Positions 20,843 through 30,162 of a stretch of DNA of 44,502 nt are shown piece after piece. Position 1 is the stretch's first letter. Every line of letters starts with the position of its first letter. Location: positions 1 to 44,502 of the forward strand of contig JANXSX010000218.1 of the NCBI GenBank assembly GCA_025356475.1. The letters are read 5' to 3'. A program made the translations under genes and the position numbers. The notes under the pieces are model-generated. The model was not told where the DNA came from and did not search any database. It worked only from the letters and a program-made list of their open reading frames with translations. The stretch comes from Isosphaeraceae bacterium (GTDB lineage: Bacteria; Planctomycetota; Planctomycetia; Isosphaerales; Isosphaeraceae).

Positions 20843-21952
20843 TCAGTGCCAGCTCCCGGAATCCGCTCCTCCGGCCCAGCCCATGACCGAGGCTGCGATG
20901 CGGTCGAGTGGCAGGACGAACTTGGCAGCTCCACGCCGGATCGCCTCGCGAGGCATACCAAACACGACCGAGGTCGCCTCGTCCTGGGCGATCGTGAGGG
21001 CCCCTGCCTCACGCATTTCCAGGAGCCCAGCCGCTCCGTCCTCGCCCATCCCGGTCATGATGATCCCGGCGGCATTGGGGCCGGCAGCCTGGGCAGCGGA
21101 TCGGAAAAGGACATCGACACTCGGTCGGAATTGACCGACGAGTGGACCGTCACGGAGTTCAACTCGATAACCAACACCTGTGCGTTGGATTAGACCATGA
21201 ACATCGGCGGGAATCACCAGGACGCGACCAGGCTGGATCGTGTCGTGATGCGTCGCCTCACTGACTTCCAGAGGGATTTTCGCATCATTGTTCAGACGAT
21301 TTGCAAAAGCACCCGTGAATCCGGTCGGCATGTGGATCACGATCACAATCCCGGGCGCGTCGGTTGGATAGAAGGTCAACAGCCTTTGGATGGCCTGAAC
21401 GCCACCAGTACTCACCCCGACCGCGATGATTCGCTCGCCAGCCCCAGCCCCGGTTCGTGGCGAATAGGCATGTCGGGCGAGTACCGCATCTGCGGATTGT
21501 CGCCCCTCATTACCCCCAGCCACTTTGTCTTCCCGCATTGGCAGTCGACCTGCCCGGGCCGCGTTACGGATCGATTCAAGCAAGGTCTTGGACCATTCGG
21601 CGAGCTTTGTCGGATCACGCCAATCGGGCTTCTTGATGACCTCAAGAGCCCCCATCTCAAGCGCGATCACGGCCCGCTCAGCGACATCGGTACATAGAAC
21701 GACCGGTAAGGGGTGCTGACGCATCAGCTTCTTGAGGAAAGTCAACCCATCCATCCGAGGCATTTCCACGTCGAGCAAGATGACGCCTGGGACACTCTTG
21801 GCCAGGATCGCGACCGCTTCGTAGGGATCTGCCGCCAGGATCACTCGAAAGCGTGGGTCGCTCTCAATGATCTGCTTGTGACGCTGGCGGATGACTGCGC
21901 TGTCATCGACCACCAGGACGACAATCTGTGCGGACGGATCAGGAGTCACCAT
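20843..21952 (-). CDS. cheB: Chemotaxis glutamate methylesterase/response regulator CheB
   Basis: CheB removes methyl groups from receptor glutamates when phosphorylated by CheA. The 369 residues have a receiver domain (about 10-128: Asp16-Asp17, phosphosite Asp61 in ILLDVEMPRMDG, Lys107 or 108) and, after a linker of about 45 residues, the methylesterase domain (174-360) with Ser181 in GVSTGGVQ, His207 in IVIHMPTGFTGAF and Asp305 in GMGEDGAAG. All catalytic positions are present. It is the last gene of the chemosensory cluster, 9 bases after cheR. Secure. Confidence 0.96.
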   Translation of the reverse strand: MVTPDPSAQIVVLVVDDSAVIRQRHKQIIESDPRFRVILAADPYEAVAILAKSVPGVILLDVEMPRMDGLTFLKKLMRQHPLPVVLCTDVAERAVIALEMGALEVIKKPDWRDPTKLAEWSKTLLESIRNAARAGRLPMREDKVAGGNEGRQSADAVLARHAYSPRTGAGAGERIIAVGVSTGGVQAIQRLLTFYPTDAPGIVIVIHMPTGFTGAFANRLNNDAKIPLEVSEATHHDTIQPGRVLVIPADVHGLIQRTGVGYRVELRDGPLVGQFRPSVDVLFRSAAQAAGPNAAGIIMTGMGEDGAAGLLEMREAGALTIAQDEATSVVFGMPREAIRRGAAKFVLPLDRIAASVMGWAGGADSGSWH

Positions 21953-21961
21953 GAGGATCGG

Positions 21962-22828
21962 TCATTGCTCTTTTCGGTAAATGGAGGGGGCAAACTTACG
22001 GAGTGAAGCGGGGACCCCTGGTAGTATTTCACCGTTACCCATCGCTAGCCAGCCACCGACCCTCAGGTATTGAGCAAGGTGATTCAGGAGTTGCATACGC
22101 TCATCTTCTGCAAAGTAAATCGATACGTTACGACAGAAAATGGCGTGAAAATCGTTCGGTAATGGCCAGACGGGATCGCGGAGGTCGAGCCGCTTGAACT
22201 TACAGAGGTCACGAATTTCAGGCACAATGCGGTATGACCCATCACGAGGGCCAGTCCCCCGCAAGAAGAACCGACGAAGTCGAGTTGGGGAGACCCCGGT
22301 CACTTCACGCGTGTTATAGACGGCGGCAGCAGCCGTCGCAACGACCTCACTGGATAGGTCAGTCGACCAGATCTCAACCCGTTGCGGGCTCAGGTTTTGG
22401 ATGGTTTCAGCCAGCACCATGGCCATGCTGTATGGCTCTTGTCCGGTTGAGCACCCGGCCGACCAGATCCGCACGACCCCGCGGGCTTCTTTTATGGCGG
22501 GGGAAAGACGTTCGGCCATGAATGTGAAGTGGTTGGCCTCGCGGAAGAAGGCGGTGTGGTTGACGGTCGAGAGGTCGATCAGCAATTGCATGCCAAGTCC
22601 GGCGGGGTCGACTTTGAGGACCCGGTCGTGCCATAAACTGAAGCCTGGGAAGCCTTTGGCCTGGAGACGTTGTCGGAGACGAGCCTGGAGCAAGCCGAGC
22701 CGGTGCGCTTCCAGACTGATGCCAATCCGGTTGCGAAGGAACGCAATGATCGGCGCAAAGTCCCCTTCCGACCACGGTTCGGGGTCGTTAGACGAGGGCG
22801 GCGGGAGTTGCGGGTCGGAAAACGCCAC
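21962..22828 (-). CDS. cheR: Chemoreceptor methyltransferase CheR
   Basis: CheR methylates receptor glutamates using S-adenosylmethionine. Start chosen at GTG 22828, one base after the cheW stop and with GGGGGG about nine bases upstream; a longer frame to 22894 would lie inside cheW. The 288-residue protein has the N-terminal helical domain (FLRNRIGISLEAHR), the SAM motif IWSAGCSTGQEPYSMAM, EIWSTDLSSEVV, and DFHAIFCRNVSIYF, then GGWLAMGNGE. Length and motifs are normal. It is coupled to cheW and cheB by tight spacing. Confidence 0.95.
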   Translation of the reverse strand: MAFSDPQLPPPSSNDPEPWSEGDFAPIIAFLRNRIGISLEAHRLGLLQARLRQRLQAKGFPGFSLWHDRVLKVDPAGLGMQLLIDLSTVNHTAFFREANHFTFMAERLSPAIKEARGVVRIWSAGCSTGQEPYSMAMVLAETIQNLSPQRVEIWSTDLSSEVVATAAAAVYNTREVTGVSPTRLRRFFLRGTGPRDGSYRIVPEIRDLCKFKRLDLRDPVWPLPNDFHAIFCRNVSIYFAEDERMQLLNHLAQYLRVGGWLAMGNGEILPGVPASLRKFAPSIYRKEQ

Positions 22829-22829
22829 G

Positions 22830-23340
22830 TCAGAACCCCCCAGCGATCCCGATCTTTGCACCGGCCAACGCCGCGAACACACGATCGACATCAAGTACCA
22901 GCAAGAACCCCTCCTGGTGACGGATCAGTCCCCTCACAAATGGAGAAGCTTTCCCGAGACCGAGTTGAGGGGCAGGCTGAACTTCGTCGGGAGAGAAGTC
23001 CAGCACATCGGAGACACGGTCGACCAGCAGACCTGTTACGCTCACTTCGCCGTTGTTGTGCGACTCGACCATCAAGACGCAAGGGGCTCGTGTCGGGGTT
23101 GGGTCCACTGTCAGACCAAAGGGCAATCGCAGATCGTAAACTGGAACGACCTTCCCACGCAAGTTTAACACTCCACGCAACGATGGAGGCCCACCCGGCA
23201 CGTGAGTCAAAGCCCCCATGTCCAGAACCTCCTGGACGCGCATCACCTCGAGCGTGTAGTCCTCGCCACCGAGTCGAAAAATGACATACGACTGGGTGAG
23301 CGACGACTCGCTGTAGGGATCGGTGGTGGTGTCGGCCATG
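22830..23340 (-). CDS. cheW: Chemotaxis coupling protein CheW
   Basis: CheW links receptor tips to CheA in the sensory array. The protein of about 169 residues has the standard double beta barrel: YVIFRLGGEDYTLEVMRVQE, then HVPGGPPSLRGVLNLRGKVV, PVYDLRLPFGL, and VRGLIRHQEGFLLVLDVDRVF. ATG at 23340 is preferred over a TTG two codons earlier because GGAG stands nine bases before it. A C-terminal tail of about 15 residues is added. It sits between the receptor gene (156-base gap) and cheR (1 base). Confidence 0.95.
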
Positions 23341-23496
23341 ACCAAGGCTCCGGGGCAGACGGCATGCAGGCGGTTGGAGACTTTGAGACCATTTTGCAGT
23401 CGAACAGACCAGCACCCTTTACGGCCTCATCGAATGGAGGCCGGGTGAGGAGACTGGGGGTCAAGAAGCCTTCCGCTTGCGACCCCTCGATTCCAC

Positions 23497-25365
23497 TCAC
23501 ATTCTCTCAAAGTGGTCATCATCGTCCAGGTTCACCACAATTCCGCCGTGAGCGTTGTGCTGGCCTGAAGCAGGGGGATTGGCCGGCGGACCCGCGTCTC
23601 GATGATGTGCCGGCGGACTTGGCCGATTCTCAGGGGCGAGGCCCCCGGTCACCGATGGGCGATGCACCGGAGGGAGCCGACGAGCCGGGGCCGAGGGCCG
23701 TGGCGCAGGCCGGTTCCCCGAGGGGCGACCGGTCCCAGAGGGTGCTGCAAATCCGTCGTCTTCATCCACGTGGAAGAAGCTCATCAGGCTTTGCAACTTC
23801 GAGGATTCCGACGCGAGGTCGCCTGAGGTGCTCGCCAACTGATAAGAGGCGGACGCGTTTTGCTGAACGACCTCGTCGAGTTGGTTCACTCCGACATTGA
23901 TCTCGCGGATCGCCGCCATCTGCTCCTGGCTGGCAGCGGCGATCTCCTGGACGAGCTGCGAGGTCTCGCGAATCATCGGTACGATCCGCTCGAGCAGTTG
24001 ACCGGCGTTCTCGGCGACGGCGACGCTTGATGAGGCCAAGGCCCCAATCTCTTGCGCGGCCGCCCCTGACCGTTCTGCCAGCTTCCTGACCTCACCGGCC
24101 ACAACCGCGAAGCCCTTCCCTTGAGTCCCTGCGCGAGCAGCCTCAATGGCGGCGTTCAAGGCGAGCAGATTCGTCTGGTAGGCGATATCTTCGACAACGC
24201 TAATCTTCTTGGCGATCTGACGCATGGCAGTGACGGTTTCATGGACGGCCTCGCCCCCCTTCTCCGCCTGAGCACTGGCGTGATTGGCGGTCTTGGCGGT
24301 CTCTTTGGCATGCTGAGCATTGCGTCCGACCGAGGCGTCGACCGACGACAGGCTCGACGCGATCTCTTGCAGAGTCCCAGCCTGTTCAGTTGCCCCTTGC
24401 GAAAGCTGCTGGGCTGAACTGTTGAGCTGATGACTAGCGGTCGAGACAGACGAGGTCGCCATCCGAATGTCTTTGATCACGCTGGAGAGTCGCTCGACGA
24501 CCGAGTTGACCTGGGCCGCCAGCTTGCCTAGTTCATCGCTACGCGTCACGTCGGTCCGAACATCGAATCGCCCGTTTTCGAGCTTGTGGGTGACTTCGGA
24601 GATCGAGACGATCGGCTCGACGAACCGATGTGCGATAACGCCACCCAGCACGGTGATCACGACAAGATAGATGAGGCAGCCGAGCAGGGTCTTGAGCTGG
24701 AGGTCGAGGATCTTGGCGTAGGCATCGCTACGGCGAATGGCCACGATCACACCGTACTTCTGGGTGAGATTTGGCGTCTTCGCAACCTCCGGCTTGGGGG
24801 CGGCTGCATCGGCCGGTGGGGTGGGCTTGGACTCGACCGCAGACAACATATCCACACTGTCATAGCCGACGATCTCCGCGTAGTCACTGGGCCCGACGAC
24901 CTCTTCGAGACTGCTCAGCCCCGTGGCGATCTTCGAGAGGACCGTCTCGTATTCGCTCGGATGCGTGTTGACCGAGATACTGGCGATCCCTTCTTGAGAC
25001 GAGAGGCGGCGGACCGCAAGGACTTTGGCCCCGTCGGCACTTGGACTCACAAGGAGGATATGAGCCCGGGGGATCTCGAATTCTTTGGCGACATTATTGA
25101 AGAGAAGGGTCACATCTTCGGTTTTCGTTGGGTCGTAGATCGGCAGGAGGTTCCCACGCTCGTCCTTCACCGCGATCGACTTCTCGGAGATGAACTTGGA
25201 CCTGATCTCGTGGGCAGCGAACGTGGCGGCCCGTTTGATGACGCTGTCTTCCTTCTTCTTAAACTCATCCAGGCCGAAGAATGCGAAGATCGCCACGATC
25301 AGGGTCGGGATCAGGCCGAAGCCGATCAGAGAAAACATCAATTTACGTTGCAAAGGGGACTTCAT
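23497..25365 (-). CDS. Methyl-accepting chemotaxis protein with Pro-rich tail
   Basis: The 622-residue receptor has two membrane helices (10-31 and about 227-245) that frame a 195-residue extracytoplasmic sensor domain of no clear class, including a Pro/Ala-rich stretch (181-197). A HAMP domain (246-300) follows, then the signalling domain with tip [20 protein letters not shown] and conserved [13 protein letters not shown]. After FFHVDEDD comes a Pro/Arg/His-rich linker of about 85 residues ending in [11 protein letters not shown]. The end fits a flexible tether with a CheR/CheB-docking pentapeptide (consensus x-aromatic-x-x-aromatic; here HFERM). It is the only receptor in the cluster. The sensed signal is unknown. 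Confidence 0.94.
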
Positions 25366-25384
25366 GGACCGGAGGCCTCCGCAA

Positions 25385-27679
25385 TCACGCCGACGGCTGG
25401 GGGGAGGGGGAGGATAATTGCATTTGAATCGCGCGTTGGGTATCTGCAGCCCGCGACTCGGCCACCAACGCGGCCAGGTCGAGAATCAACGAGACGGACC
25501 CGTCTCCAAGGATCGTCGCGCCAGAGAACCGGCCCAGAACTCCGAGCCCCTCACCCAGCGACTGGATCACGGCTTGAACACGGCCGAGGAGCTTGTCGAC
25601 AGCCACGCCAACCCGTTGGCCCGCGTGCCTAGTGAGAAGGAGTTCCTGACGGAGAGGCGCAGGACCAGTACAGTGGAAGACCGACCGAAGCGGGACCATC
25701 GGCACAAGTTCACCACGGACAGACACACAGGGCCGACCTTTCGAGAGGGCCGGCTGCGTTCCGTTCAGCGCGACGCACTCCTCGACCTGGGCGAGAGGCA
25801 CCACGTACCGACTGCCCGCTGTCTCGACGAGCAAACCATCGATCAAGGCCAGGGTCAGGGGGAGTCGAAAGATGAACGCGGTCCCTTTTCCGGGTTGGCT
25901 CTCAACGGCGAGGCTGCCACGAAGCGAACGCACAGCGTCGCGAACGACATCCAGACCTACGCCTCGACCGGAAAGCTCGCTGACCTGGTCACGGGTCGAG
26001 AAGCCGGGCTCGAAAATCAGGGTGTCGACACGGGGGTCATCGACCGAAGTGCCGATAGGAACGAGCCCTTTAGCGATCCCCTTCTTGACGATCGCTTCCC
26101 TGTTAAGCCCACGGCCATCCTCCTCGATACGGAGCGCGACGCGATCTCCCTCGTGGCCGGCTTGGAGGGTGATCCGACCCATTCGGGGCTTGCCCATGGC
26201 TTGACGCTCTTCGGGAGTCTCCAGACCGTGGTCCACGGCATTCCGGATCAGGTGGATCATCGGCTCGGAGAGTCGTTCCACAATCGTCCGGTCGAGCCGG
26301 GTATCCTGGCCAACGATCCGAAGCTCAATCTCCTTCCCAGATCGGTCGGCGAGGTCGCGGACCACTCGTGGGAATCGACTGAACAGCTCTTCGACAGGGA
26401 CCATTCGAAGCTCAAGAGTCGTGTCTCGGATCAAACGACTGACTCGGTCGAGGGCTTCGAGAGTCGTGATCCAGGTGTTCGAACCCTCGAGTTCGCGGAG
26501 CCCCTGAAGGTTGTCTGAGAGGACCGCCAGTTCCCCTGCGAGTCCCACCAGGTCATCAAGTTGTCCCGCATCGACTCGGATCCGCGTCGGTACTTTGTTC
26601 GAAGCGGTGTTCAGAGGACGAGGAGCTTCGGGAGCCGGGGGCTTGGAGGGTGCCGGCTTGGGCAGAATCGTCGCAGCCAGGTCGGAGGCTGAAATGATCG
26701 CCGTCAGGGGTTCCTTAGGAGGGATCAGGGGGGACAGTAATGGCTTAGGCTTTGTGGCCACGACCGCTGGCGACGGTGCAACCGCCTCGTGGGCTGGCGG
26801 GGGGATCTTGATGATACCCCGTTCGTCGATCTGTTCGATCGTGACCGTGCTGTCCTCAGCCACAAACAGGAACACATCGTCGAGCCTGTCCGGCCCGACG
26901 GCGGTCTCAAGTTCGATGTTCCAGGTGAAGAAGCAGCGCTCCGGGTCCAGCTCGGCGAGTGACGGAATCTCGTCGGGGTCGGTCGTGACCTTGCAGCTCC
27001 CCAGGTCGCGGAGTTCGTCGAGCACCCCCAGCGGGTTCACCCCCCGCTTCAGCATCTCGGGGCCGGGTCGGAGAGAGATCCGGAAGAGATTCAAGCCGGG
27101 CTTGGCCTTGAGTGTCGAGGGAGTTTCGGCTCCTGCCGATTTCTTGGTCGGCTTCTTGGCCTTCGCTTCCGGACTCGTCCCCGCCCCCTTCTTGGCCCTC
27201 GGCTTCTTGGCGGTGGGTGCCACGATAGGAGGTTCTGGAGGAAGAAGGATGACCGGTGCTTTTGGGCGGGCGGGGGCGGGTGGTGGCGTGATCGTTGCAG
27301 GGTCCTGGAGAAAGATCTCCAGGCGTTTGATCAGGTCGATCGGAGCAGGGATCGCAAAGCCGGCGGCCTCGGCCTCCACGGCGGTTGCAAGATGGTCTCG
27401 GGCTTCGAGTAAGGTACTGATGACATCGGAGTCAACATTCAGCGTCTTGTTGCGAACCTTGTCGAGGACCGCTTCAACACCGTGGGTGAAGTCGGCGATT
27501 CCCGACATTCCGACCATCGCTGCCGCGCCCTTAATGCTGTGGGCGGCTCGGAATGTCTTATCGAGGTGCGCGCGGTCATCCTTGCGTCGCTCTAGCTCCA
27601 TCAAGCCCTCTTCGAGGCTCAGGAGCAGCTCACGCGCTTCCTCAAAGAACATCTCGCGAAAACGGTCGTCACCGGACAA
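25385..27679 (-). CDS. cheA: Chemotaxis histidine kinase CheA
   Basis: CheA autophosphorylates under receptor control and passes phosphate to CheB and the regulators. The 764 residues contain the Hpt domain with His47 in [14 protein letters not shown], a Pro/Lys/Ala-rich linker (132-190), a P2-like domain (about 195-295, [31 protein letters not shown]), a second Pro-rich linker, the dimerisation helices ([20 protein letters not shown]), the ATPase with [26 protein letters not shown] and [13 protein letters not shown], and the CheW-like end. The start is TTG: GAAGGGGA lies seven bases before it, and the first ATG would cut into the Hpt helix. All kinase motifs are intact. Confidence 0.96.
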
Positions 27680-27799
27680 TACGAATTCCCCTTCTGAGAG
27701 GCTAACATCGGGGATACCTCAGTCTAAACGACGAATGCATCCAAGGCCAGCAACCCCTCGCTCCAATTCGGGTGGGCTGCGCGGCCTGTGACGACTAGC

Positions 27800-28165
27800 T
27801 CAACGGGGTAAGGAGCGGCGGATCCATCTGCGGAGGCTTTCCGGGTCGGCCGGCTTGACGATCCAGCCAGTGACGAACTGCCTGCGCTCCAGCTCAACCT
27901 CGGTGGGACGTTTCGAGGAGAAGATCAGGATGGGCAAGAAACGGTATTCGGGGATGTCCCGAACCGCAGCGGCGAGCGAAAGCCCATCAAGGTTCGGCAT
28001 TTCCAGGTCGGTCAGCAGGAGGTCGAACGACTGATCGATCAGCATCTGAAGTGCAATGTCTCCATCGGCGGCCGAGACCACGCGAGTCTCGGCGTCGGTA
28101 ATCTGTTCGGCGACCCAGCGGCGGACCGCCGCGCTATCATCGGCATGAAGGATCGTCTTGCCCAT
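27800..28165 (-). CDS. Single-domain response regulator (CheY-like)
   Basis: The 121-residue receiver domain has the acidic pair Asp9-Asp10, phosphosite Asp53 (LLLTDLEMPNLDG), Ser83/84 in LIFSSKRP and Lys104 in WIVKPAD. There is no output domain, so it must act by binding a partner, as CheY does. The gene lies 120 bases before cheA and 18 after the STAS gene on the same strand. No CheZ, CheC or CheX phosphatase is encoded nearby. Whether it talks to a motor or to the STAS/PP2C branch cannot be read from the sequence. Confidence 0.92.
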   Translation of the reverse strand: MGKTILHADDSAAVRRWVAEQITDAETRVVSAADGDIALQMLIDQSFDLLLTDLEMPNLDGLSLAAAVRDIPEYRFLPILIFSSKRPTEVELERRQFVTGWIVKPADPESLRRWIRRSLPR

Positions 28166-28183
28166 GTCACTCCATGCATCAGC

Positions 28184-28489
28184 TCAGGCGTAGGATTCCG
28201 CATGCACATCGAGCCAATCGCGAAGTCCAGAACGCCCCGCGATCTCGACGCAAACCCCAGGAATATGAGCAAAACGAATCGAGACGTCGAGCTTCTTGGC
28301 CGAATTGACCACCGAGACGAGTAACTGCAAACCTGCCAGATCCCAGGGTCCCGACGTCTCCAGGTCGATCCGCAGATCCTGTCCCGTCGAGAGCGAGGAC
28401 ATCAGCAGTTCACGGAGGTCCGTCGACTCATAAAGCGTGACCGGCCCCGAGAGCATCACCGTGGTCGCAGGATCGGAGGCTGGAGGCAT
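28184..28489 (-). CDS. STAS-domain protein (anti-sigma antagonist-like) without the usual phosphosite
   Basis: The protein has 101 residues from the ATG at 28489; a TTG six codons upstream is the alternative. The whole length is one STAS domain: VMLSGPVTLYESTDLRELL, DLRIDLETSGPWDLAGLQLL, then VSIRFAHIPGVCVEIAGRSG and a short end. In SpoIIAA-like antagonists the DSSG turn carries the regulatory Ser; here it reads Asp50-Leu-Ala-Gly, so neither hydroxyl is present. It may be a locked interaction module or act differently from classic antagonists. It lies 18 bases before the CheY-like gene and is probably co-transcribed with it. Confidence 0.85.
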   Translation of the reverse strand: MPPASDPATTVMLSGPVTLYESTDLRELLMSSLSTGQDLRIDLETSGPWDLAGLQLLVSVVNSAKKLDVSIRFAHIPGVCVEIAGRSGLRDWLDVHAESYA

Positions 28490-28692
28490 GAGCTTACAAC
28501 CGATCAAGAGGGACCCTGGGCATCGTTAACGCTCTCATCGTCGTCAACCTTTGCATCTTATCATACTGGTGGCGCGTCAAGGGGAGAACGATCCCGGGCC
28601 TGGTTTGTTGCATCCTAGAGGAAGCGATCGGATGCAGGCTCTGCGGAAACTCAGTGGGCTTTCCTAGTCGCATTCCGCCCAAGGGGTGACCC

Positions 28693-28865
28693 ATGATGAC
28701 CAAACCAAACCGGCCCAATCCCCCTCTCAGTCCTGAGCAGCAGCTTTTGAACGATCTTTGGGAGGAGCATATTCGAGATGAGTTCACGACCCACGACACG
28801 GACGCGATCCTCAGCACGATGGTCCCAGACGCCTATGTGGACCATATCCCGAGGTTTGAAACAGA
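28693..28865 (+). pseudogene. 3'-truncated NTF2/SnoaL-like protein gene
   Basis: A good start (ATG at 28693, or the second ATG, with AAGGGG upstream) leads to LLNDLWEEHIRDEFTTHDTD and MVPDAYVDHIP, which match the start of SnoaL-like proteins, in which a glycine-rich turn and the rest of a 140-residue cone-shaped fold should follow. Instead, after about residue 53 the sequence runs into the 3' end of the phosphatase gene on the other strand (stop at 28866) and the reading frame there is only its antisense. So about two thirds of the gene are gone. It marks a rearrangement point inside the chemosensory region. Confidence 0.6.
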
Positions 28866-30029
28866 TCACTTAGCGGCATACTGCAAGACCACCATGTTGA
28901 TGTCGTCTGCGGCCGCGCCTGGGAACACATGGGTGGCGACCGCCTTTTCGATGCCATCCAGGATCGCCATCGGATCTTCTCCGTGGTGACTTTGGAGCAG
29001 GGTCTTGAGTCGTTCCTCGCCAAAGAGAACGTCGGCTGGGTCCATGGCGTCGGTCAGACCATCCGTGTAGATGATCAGCGACTCGCCTTGGACGAGGCGG
29101 TCGACGGACCCGACGGTCCCATCGACCATGCCAACACCAAGGAGCCCAGGATTCGACTGAAGGAGGCGGGGTCCGTGCGGCCCAACGATCATTGCCGGTG
29201 GGTGACCAACCCCCGCGTAGCGAAGCAGGCCGGTCTCTTCATCGGCGATCAGATAGAAACCGGTACAAAAGTAGCCTTCGGGAAAGTACTGTTCGAGCGA
29301 GACATCGAGTCCTGCGAGCAACTCGCCGGGTTCGAGCACAGCGATCGAGAGGGGGAGCGCCAGGGCCTTGACCATGCTCGACAGCATGGCCGAGTTGACG
29401 CCATGGCCTGAGATATCGGCAACCAAGACCCCCAGTCGATTGTTCTCTAACCGATAGAAGTCGTAGACATCGCCACCAAGCTGGTTGGCGGGAGTGTACT
29501 TGACCGCAGCCTTGAGGACCCCCCGCGGCTTGGGAGGGCGAGGCATCAAGGCGTGCTGAACCTTGCGGGCGAGGTCTAGCTCGAATTTCAGCTTCTTGAG
29601 CGCTGCTTGATGGAGCCGGACCTCGGTGTCGAGTTCGCTTCTCAAGTCGGCGATCCGGAGCTGGGCTCGAAGTCGGGCGAACAGTTCCTGAATGTCGTCG
29701 GGGCTCTTGGGCTTCTGAATGTAGTCGTCGGCTCCCGCGTCAAGACCGATCAGCTTGCTATCGATGGAGCCCAGTGTGGTGAGCATCAGCACGGGAATCG
29801 TGCGTAACTCTTTATCAGCCTTGAGGGCTCGGCAGAAGCCTGGCCCATCGAGTTCGGGCATTTCGTAGTCGGAGAGGATGACCTCGGGGTCCGACTCGCG
29901 GGCTTTAACTAGCCCGTCCAGGCCGTCGACGGCGGTCGTGACCACGTAGCCTTGTTCGCTGAGGAGGGTCGAGATCATCCGACGCATCGTTGAGCTATCG
30001 TCGACCAGCAAGAGCCGTCGGGCGGCCAT
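28866..30029 (-). CDS. Response regulator with PP2C-type (SpoIIE/RsbU) phosphatase output
   Basis: The receiver domain (about 1-120) has Asp10-Asp11, phosphosite Asp54 in ILSDYEMPELDG, TTLGS, and Lys107. A helical linker (125-165) leads to the PP2C domain (170-385) with all metal-binding motifs: LGGDVYDFY, VADISGHGVNSAM, IIYTDGLTDAM and ADDINMVV. Such proteins dephosphorylate Ser/Thr on STAS antagonists when their receiver is phosphorylated. The start at 30029 is chosen because TGGAG lies before it; TTG 30053 or ATG 30044 are possible. It is placed upstream of the STAS, CheY and CheA genes on the same strand, so CheA may be its kinase. Confidence 0.9.
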   Translation of the reverse strand: MAARRLLLVDDSSTMRRMISTLLSEQGYVVTTAVDGLDGLVKARESDPEVILSDYEMPELDGPGFCRALKADKELRTIPVLMLTTLGSIDSKLIGLDAGADDYIQKPKSPDDIQELFARLRAQLRIADLRSELDTEVRLHQAALKKLKFELDLARKVQHALMPRPPKPRGVLKAAVKYTPANQLGGDVYDFYRLENNRLGVLVADISGHGVNSAMLSSMVKALALPLSIAVLEPGELLAGLDVSLEQYFPEGYFCTGFYLIADEETGLLRYAGVGHPPAMIVGPHGPRLLQSNPGLLGVGMVDGTVGSVDRLVQGESLIIYTDGLTDAMDPADVLFGEERLKTLLQSHHGEDPMAILDGIEKAVATHVFPGAAADDINMVVLQYAAK

Positions 30030-30162
30030 CGGCTCAATCTCCATGAGGGGCAAAGCGGAGGGAATTCGCGGCGTCGGACTAAGAAAGATCCAACCTGGAA
30101 TGCTAGTACAATACGGCCCAAGACCGCAGCCTGTCCAGTAACAAGCTAAGAGGCACAGGACA

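Follow-up and report, generated by a model that had tools for sequence, protein, structure and literature searches.

A REC-PP2C phosphatase as candidate output of a non-flagellar chemosensory cluster in Isosphaeraceae

Several described signalling systems place a PP2C phosphatase under the control of a receiver domain, and it is with these that we compare a chemosensory (che) gene cluster of the planctomycete Isosphaeraceae bacterium, at positions 20843-30029 of contig JANXSX010000218.1 (assembly GCA_025356475.1); this contig was analysed over its full 44,502 nucleotides, is called the window below, and is one of the 232 contigs that make up a 5.9-Mb genome. In Bacillus cereus, the methylation-controlled histidine kinase RsbK phosphorylates the response regulator phosphatase RsbY, and this in turn acts on the STAS protein RsbV of the sigma B pathway (PMC9912610). 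Receiver-controlled PP2C proteins likewise act on STAS proteins in the HptB-HsbR-HsbA system of Pseudomonas, CrsR-CrsA of Shewanella and SypE-SypA of Vibrio (PMC6482189; PMC4517449), and a PP2C, a kinase and a STAS-like switch make up SiaABCD of P. aeruginosa, a merged signalling system (PMC9239204). STAS proteins are also known from chemosensory pathways: CheS, which S. meliloti encodes within a che cluster and which consists of a STAS domain alone, binds to CheA and alters how phosphate is shared among the CheYs (PMC12654446), and a STAS-only gene 'S' is a listed element of F-class che clusters (PMC9239204).

We propose, with moderate confidence, that the window encodes a non-flagellar che pathway whose effector is a response regulator made of a receiver and a PP2C phosphatase (REC-PP2C) acting on an unlinked target, and whose clustered STAS protein is a CheS-like accessory. 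The novelty is that, in a family lacking flagella, a REC-PP2C is stably paired with a complete CheA array, as receiver-controlled PP2C regulators are already known (RsbY, HsbR, CrsR, SypE). The eight genes that an initial annotation had placed here on one strand are all present, open and intact on the minus strand, and each product matches its expected Pfam family; they are listed from the PP2C gene onwards, followed by a gene remnant:

28866..30029, minus strand: REC-PP2C (SpoIIE-type) response regulator, the likely effector (PF00072 and PF07228)
28184..28489, minus strand: STAS-domain-only protein with an RsbV fold and Leu at the phospho-acceptor position (PF01740/PF13466)
27800..28165, minus strand: CheY-like single-domain receiver (PF00072)
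25385..27679, minus strand: CheA histidine kinase with one Hpt and without a receiver (Hpt, HATPase_c and CheW domains)
23497..25365, minus strand: MCP membrane chemoreceptor with a fast-evolving PAS/single-Cache-like extracellular domain (HAMP and MCPsignal)
22830..23345, minus strand: CheW coupling protein (PF01584, 6e-32)
21962..22894, minus strand: CheR methyltransferase (PF01739, PF03705)
20843..21952, minus strand: CheB methylesterase with a receiver (PF00072, PF01339; above the NCBIfam NF001965 cut-off)
28693..28989, plus strand: NTF2-like/ester cyclase gene remnant between PP2C and STAS, outside the system (partial homology)

The PP2C gene likely starts at the ATG at 30029, with an upstream TTG at 30053 possible (longest frame 28866-30053), and the STAS gene likely at the ATG at 28489 (open frame 28184-28507). 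The dimerisation domain of CheA scores below the Pfam cut-off.

The evidence that ties the phosphatase to the array comes from 45 Isosphaeraceae genomes, which are partly fragmented metagenome-assembled genomes (MAGs). The gene order described by the initial annotation recurs across the family as PP2C-STAS-CheY-CheA-MCP-CheW-CheR-CheB, with the same cluster in Singulisphaera acidiphila DSM 18658, Singulisphaera sp. GP187, Aquisphaera insulae, Paludisphaera soli and many MAGs. CheA and PP2C orthologues are found together in 29 genomes and are both missing from 12; two have CheA only (G006, and G019, a genome 77% complete) and two PP2C only (G011 and G043), a co-occurrence with a Fisher p of 2.6e-7 when shared descent is ignored. 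Since PP2C immediately precedes STAS, on one strand with it, in 25/45 genomes (25 of the 29 with both CheA and PP2C), the order of the cluster is not due to chance; the genes are arranged otherwise in G029, G016 and G020, and interrupted by contig ends in G032. Considering that the iron-containing alcohol dehydrogenase (Fe-ADH) gene, the opposite neighbour of PP2C, is near it in ~5 genomes and otherwise distant (more than 1 kb) or unseen, the bond between PP2C and STAS is more than that of an inherited block. Indeed, PP2C-STAS-CheY has been relocated as a unit away from CheA in G034; the PP2C orthologue of G043 (65% identity) lies beside a different che cluster with CheW, a GAF-containing MCP, CheR and pieces of CheA (L105/L149); and in G006, where the cluster has decayed, PP2C is also gone. 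In published work, S. acidiphila, P. borealis and SH-PL62 are noted to carry che gene arrays, Isosphaera pallida to have cheW alone, and the family to possess few genes for flagella and to lack motile swarmer cells; the passages in question do not mention PP2C or STAS (PMC5352709).

The phosphatase itself looks active, judging from its residues. Across 16 clean family orthologues, numbered from the 30053 start, the receiver positions D19, D62, T92 and K114 and the phosphatase positions D195, D213, D331 and D384 are invariant, giving a receiver that can be phosphorylated and the metal-binding Asp residues of a SpoIIE-type PP2C. Linkage, co-occurrence and these residues together bear out the PP2C as a real partner of the che cluster. 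It is also the best conserved of the eight proteins, with a mean identity to the window protein of 73%, as against 63% for CheA, 49% for the receptor and 46% for STAS. Its best full-length PDB match is the P. aeruginosa REC-PP2C 3eq2, with which it shares the two-domain architecture; to our knowledge, that regulator is not known in a che cluster. Membership of the RssB family (NCBIfam RssB_Pseudo) was rejected, as the score of 108.9 is far too low for the cut-off of 700 bits. In G001, which shares the genus label g2 with Aquisphaera insulae, an extra single receiver, 53% identical to the PP2C receiver, stands directly before PP2C (L079:3244-3687).

The remaining chemosensory proteins also look intact. 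The DD, D and K positions of CheY are invariant in 30 orthologues, the H-box, N-box and G2 of CheA are conserved, as are the MCP signalling tip and the CheB and CheR motifs, and CheA too looks active from its motifs. A search with the presumed P2 region of CheA matched no CheA structure. The sensor region of the receptor is ~30% identical among relatives, and its model, of moderate confidence, resembles the single-Cache formate sensor domain 8py0. Each of the two che clusters in the genome contains one full MCP and no others are present, so this pathway is served by one dedicated receptor. The second cluster (L107, G000:C143:30000-49500) contains a CheA with at least two Hpt-like stretches, two CheW-like matches, an MCP, CheR, CheB and receiver proteins; in genus g2, an additional Hpt-like stretch ahead of CheA (L079:6350-6670 and L090:6148-6468) suggests a duplicated Hpt.

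CheA, CheW, an MCP with intact signalling motifs, CheR and CheB are the components that define a Che system. FliM, whose presence in the genome marks the flagellar chemotaxis class, was not found in the window's genome, nor in 44 of the 45 family genomes, the single match being a fragment; the output is therefore not a flagellum. This absence argues for a putative place in the alternative cellular functions (ACF) class of chemosensory systems. The initial annotation had seen no flagellar genes nearby, which holds: ten further window genes were tested and none is flagellar (DUF1559 pseudopilin-like, flavin adenine dinucleotide (FAD)-oxidase, glycerate kinase, protease and similar). It did not mention the NTF2-like remnant, which lies in the ~376 bp that separate PP2C from STAS; its similarity to plasmid-borne NTF2-family proteins (51-57% identity) is confined to residues 7-53, and a Pfam search with it gave no match.

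What, then, is the role of the STAS protein? Its model (predicted local distance difference test score 90.6) is closest in fold to RsbV 6m36, an RsbV in complex with RsbW, with a template modelling score of ~0.77. The phospho-acceptor Ser of RsbV and SpoIIAA is, we take it, the residue after the conserved Asp. At this position, aligned on RsbV, the window protein has Leu; Leu or Ile is found in 28 of 32 orthologues, with a D-L/I-A-G loop in most, and Thr in the other four, which could be phosphorylatable. Canonical STAS switch proteins receive their phosphate at a conserved Ser of this loop (Ser 58 of SpoIIAA, PMC8256260; Ser 56 of SypA, PMC4517449); the D-S-x-G loop of the Rsb/Spo systems is missing from the clustered protein. 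In a control set, Ser is kept in 7/7 STAS proteins that lie beside a HATPase or outside che clusters, and in every STAS protein from a planctomycete che cluster the position is taken by Leu, Thr, Val or Pro.

At a threshold of 1e-50, a test at the level of orthologues only, no PP2C orthologue was found in ~200 other genomes of the class. Distant CheA homologues were examined in five class genomes; in three (G206, G240 and G064) a STAS gene lies beside the CheY-CheA region, and no adjacent PP2C was seen. As STAS-CheY-CheA occurs without PP2C in other families, it looks like the older core, with PP2C as a later, family-specific addition. For the same reason, and as a STAS-only gene stands beside cheY and cheA here just as with CheS, the clustered STAS protein is, by analogy, more likely an accessory of the CheA core, like rhizobial CheS, than a canonical switch protein.

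Set against the described systems, the locus has partial likenesses. As in RsbK-RsbY-RsbV/W of B. cereus, a methylation-tuned kinase would feed a phosphatase response regulator, there acting on a STAS protein; unlike here, RsbK is a hybrid sensor kinase and not a CheA with MCP and CheW, the receiver of RsbY is C-terminal, and RsbV and RsbW are encoded beside it (PMC9912610). HsbR, CrsR and SypE differ in also carrying a kinase domain and in having an input other than a chemosensory CheA, and Vibrio SypA differs from the clustered STAS protein in that its acceptor Ser is present. SiaABCD, whose phosphatase we take not to be a response regulator, differs in its output, a diguanylate cyclase. The locus resembles alphaproteobacterial CheS (S. 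meliloti, A. fabrum) in having a STAS-only gene inside a che cluster; however, CheS and F-class systems drive flagella, and a REC-PP2C is not noted there. Another comparison is offered by the Acidobacteriota MAG SZAS-6 (L156:9983-19374), which has on one strand a REC-PP2C, an RsbW-like HATPase_c_2, a STAS protein with D-S-A-G, a CheA with a receiver, MCP, CheW, CheB and CheR. This is the complete form of the arrangement that the initial annotation had proposed; it differs from the window in its HATPase_c_2, its Ser-bearing STAS and the receiver on its CheA, and its PP2C is just 30% identical.

That annotation had the array control an anti-sigma/antagonist switch, should CheA phosphorylate the PP2C receiver, and suggested looking for a HATPase anti-sigma gene with a matching distribution; the clustered STAS would be the antagonist. 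The tie between PP2C and che cluster stands, but the STAS as switch protein and the HATPase are not supported. There is no HATPase anti-sigma gene in the che cluster locus. Elsewhere, the genome has four HATPase_c_2 matches, of which three are receiver-HATPase proteins and the fourth is a PP2C-HATPase fusion, whose gene neighbours that of a STAS protein with D-S-S-G. HATPase_c_2 is found in 45/45 genomes, so presence at family level is uninformative, and distributions were profiled for two of the four proteins (those other than the C2 and C154 proteins). Neither candidate fits as a partner: one receiver-HATPase family is present in 44/45 genomes and missing from the PP2C-bearing G043, and the other, in 23/45, is distributed unlike PP2C. 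As far as these two candidates go, the kinase of canonical Rsb/Spo systems is thus neither in the locus nor co-distributed with the PP2C. The fusion (L112, G000:C154, ~62159-65449) adjoins its STAS gene and sugar-transferase-like genes, an arrangement that suggests a stand-alone switch governing polysaccharide production. The che cluster of Singulisphaera has, 7-8 kb away, a tandem set of HATPase_c_2 genes, RsbT/RsbX-like, together with one for a hybrid receiver protein (L128:2890-8489 and L129:4728-9863); as comparable sets are located elsewhere in other genomes, we take this proximity as chance and rejected it as a link. Considering that the genome encodes six clear SpoIIE-type phosphatases and several Ser-bearing STAS proteins (on C71, C107, C74, C57 and C154), the substrate of the PP2C could possibly be encoded elsewhere.

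The pathway might work as follows. The membrane receptor, with its single-Cache-like sensor and tuned by CheR and CheB, would control CheA, from which phosphate would pass to CheB, the small CheY and the REC-PP2C. Once phosphorylated, the REC-PP2C would dephosphorylate a STAS protein that bears phosphate on Ser/Thr and is encoded at another locus, shifting a partner switch. The clustered STAS, rather than being the substrate of the PP2C, may bind CheA and tune the flow of phosphate to CheY, as CheS does, and CheY may act as a phosphate sink. In this form, in which a Ser/Thr phosphatase is the dedicated output of the array, phosphorylated by CheA and resetting an unlinked STAS/anti-sigma switch, and in which the clustered STAS has turned from switch protein into CheA accessory, the proposal is a tentative one; that the pathway controls a protein switch rather than movement is probable.

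Some points weigh against our proposal. G011 has lost the cluster and retains a PP2C whose key residues are all intact; the PP2C can thus be served by a different kinase, or works on its own. The PP2C has a gene of its own that precedes STAS by 119-841 bp, and co-transcription is putative; some of the conserved order is a vertically inherited block; neither a PP2C substrate nor an anti-sigma partner was found; and the likeness to CheS is one of position, fold class and missing Ser. Could the PP2C be a long-standing syntenic neighbour that answers to a histidine kinase of its own, and CheA act solely via CheY, on a target such as type IV pili or exopolysaccharide? We think this unlikely: G011 speaks for it, as do G029, with its PP2C 15 kb away on the opposite strand, the DUF1559 gene behind PP2C in G016 and G020, and the unrelated flanking genes (protease, tetratricopeptide repeat, Fe-ADH, FAD oxidase), whose order is likewise conserved in many genomes; yet the PP2C-STAS linkage outlives these flanks, and both the PP2C beside another che cluster in G043 and its joint loss with the cluster in G006 argue against mere neighbourhood.

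The canonical switch, in which the PP2C dephosphorylates the clustered STAS and this binds an unlinked anti-sigma kinase, would explain the adjacency of STAS and PP2C in 25 genomes, the fold nearest to RsbV bound to RsbW, the Thr of four orthologues and the full set in the Acidobacteriota. We nonetheless rate it improbable, given the Leu or Ile of most orthologues, a locus without a HATPase and two REC-HATPase candidates distributed differently from the PP2C. A slimmer chance still falls to titration, whereby the clustered STAS, which cannot be phosphorylated, would serve as a constitutive ligand of the PP2C or of an anti-sigma-type HATPase and set its activity; an RsbV fold retained while the acceptor Ser was lost, in a protein encoded next to the PP2C, would suit such a role, but in other families STAS-CheY-CheA exists with neither PP2C nor HATPase, which is easier to reconcile with a partner of CheA.

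To conclude, few outputs of che clusters in non-motile bacteria are known, and the conserved REC-PP2C is a concrete and testable candidate output for one family, in which Singulisphaera acidiphila provides a complete reference genome. The missing acceptor Ser is a warning against calling every che-cluster STAS gene an anti-sigma antagonist. If our proposal is true, adaptive chemosensory arrays would in the Isosphaeraceae be joined to gene-expression switches.

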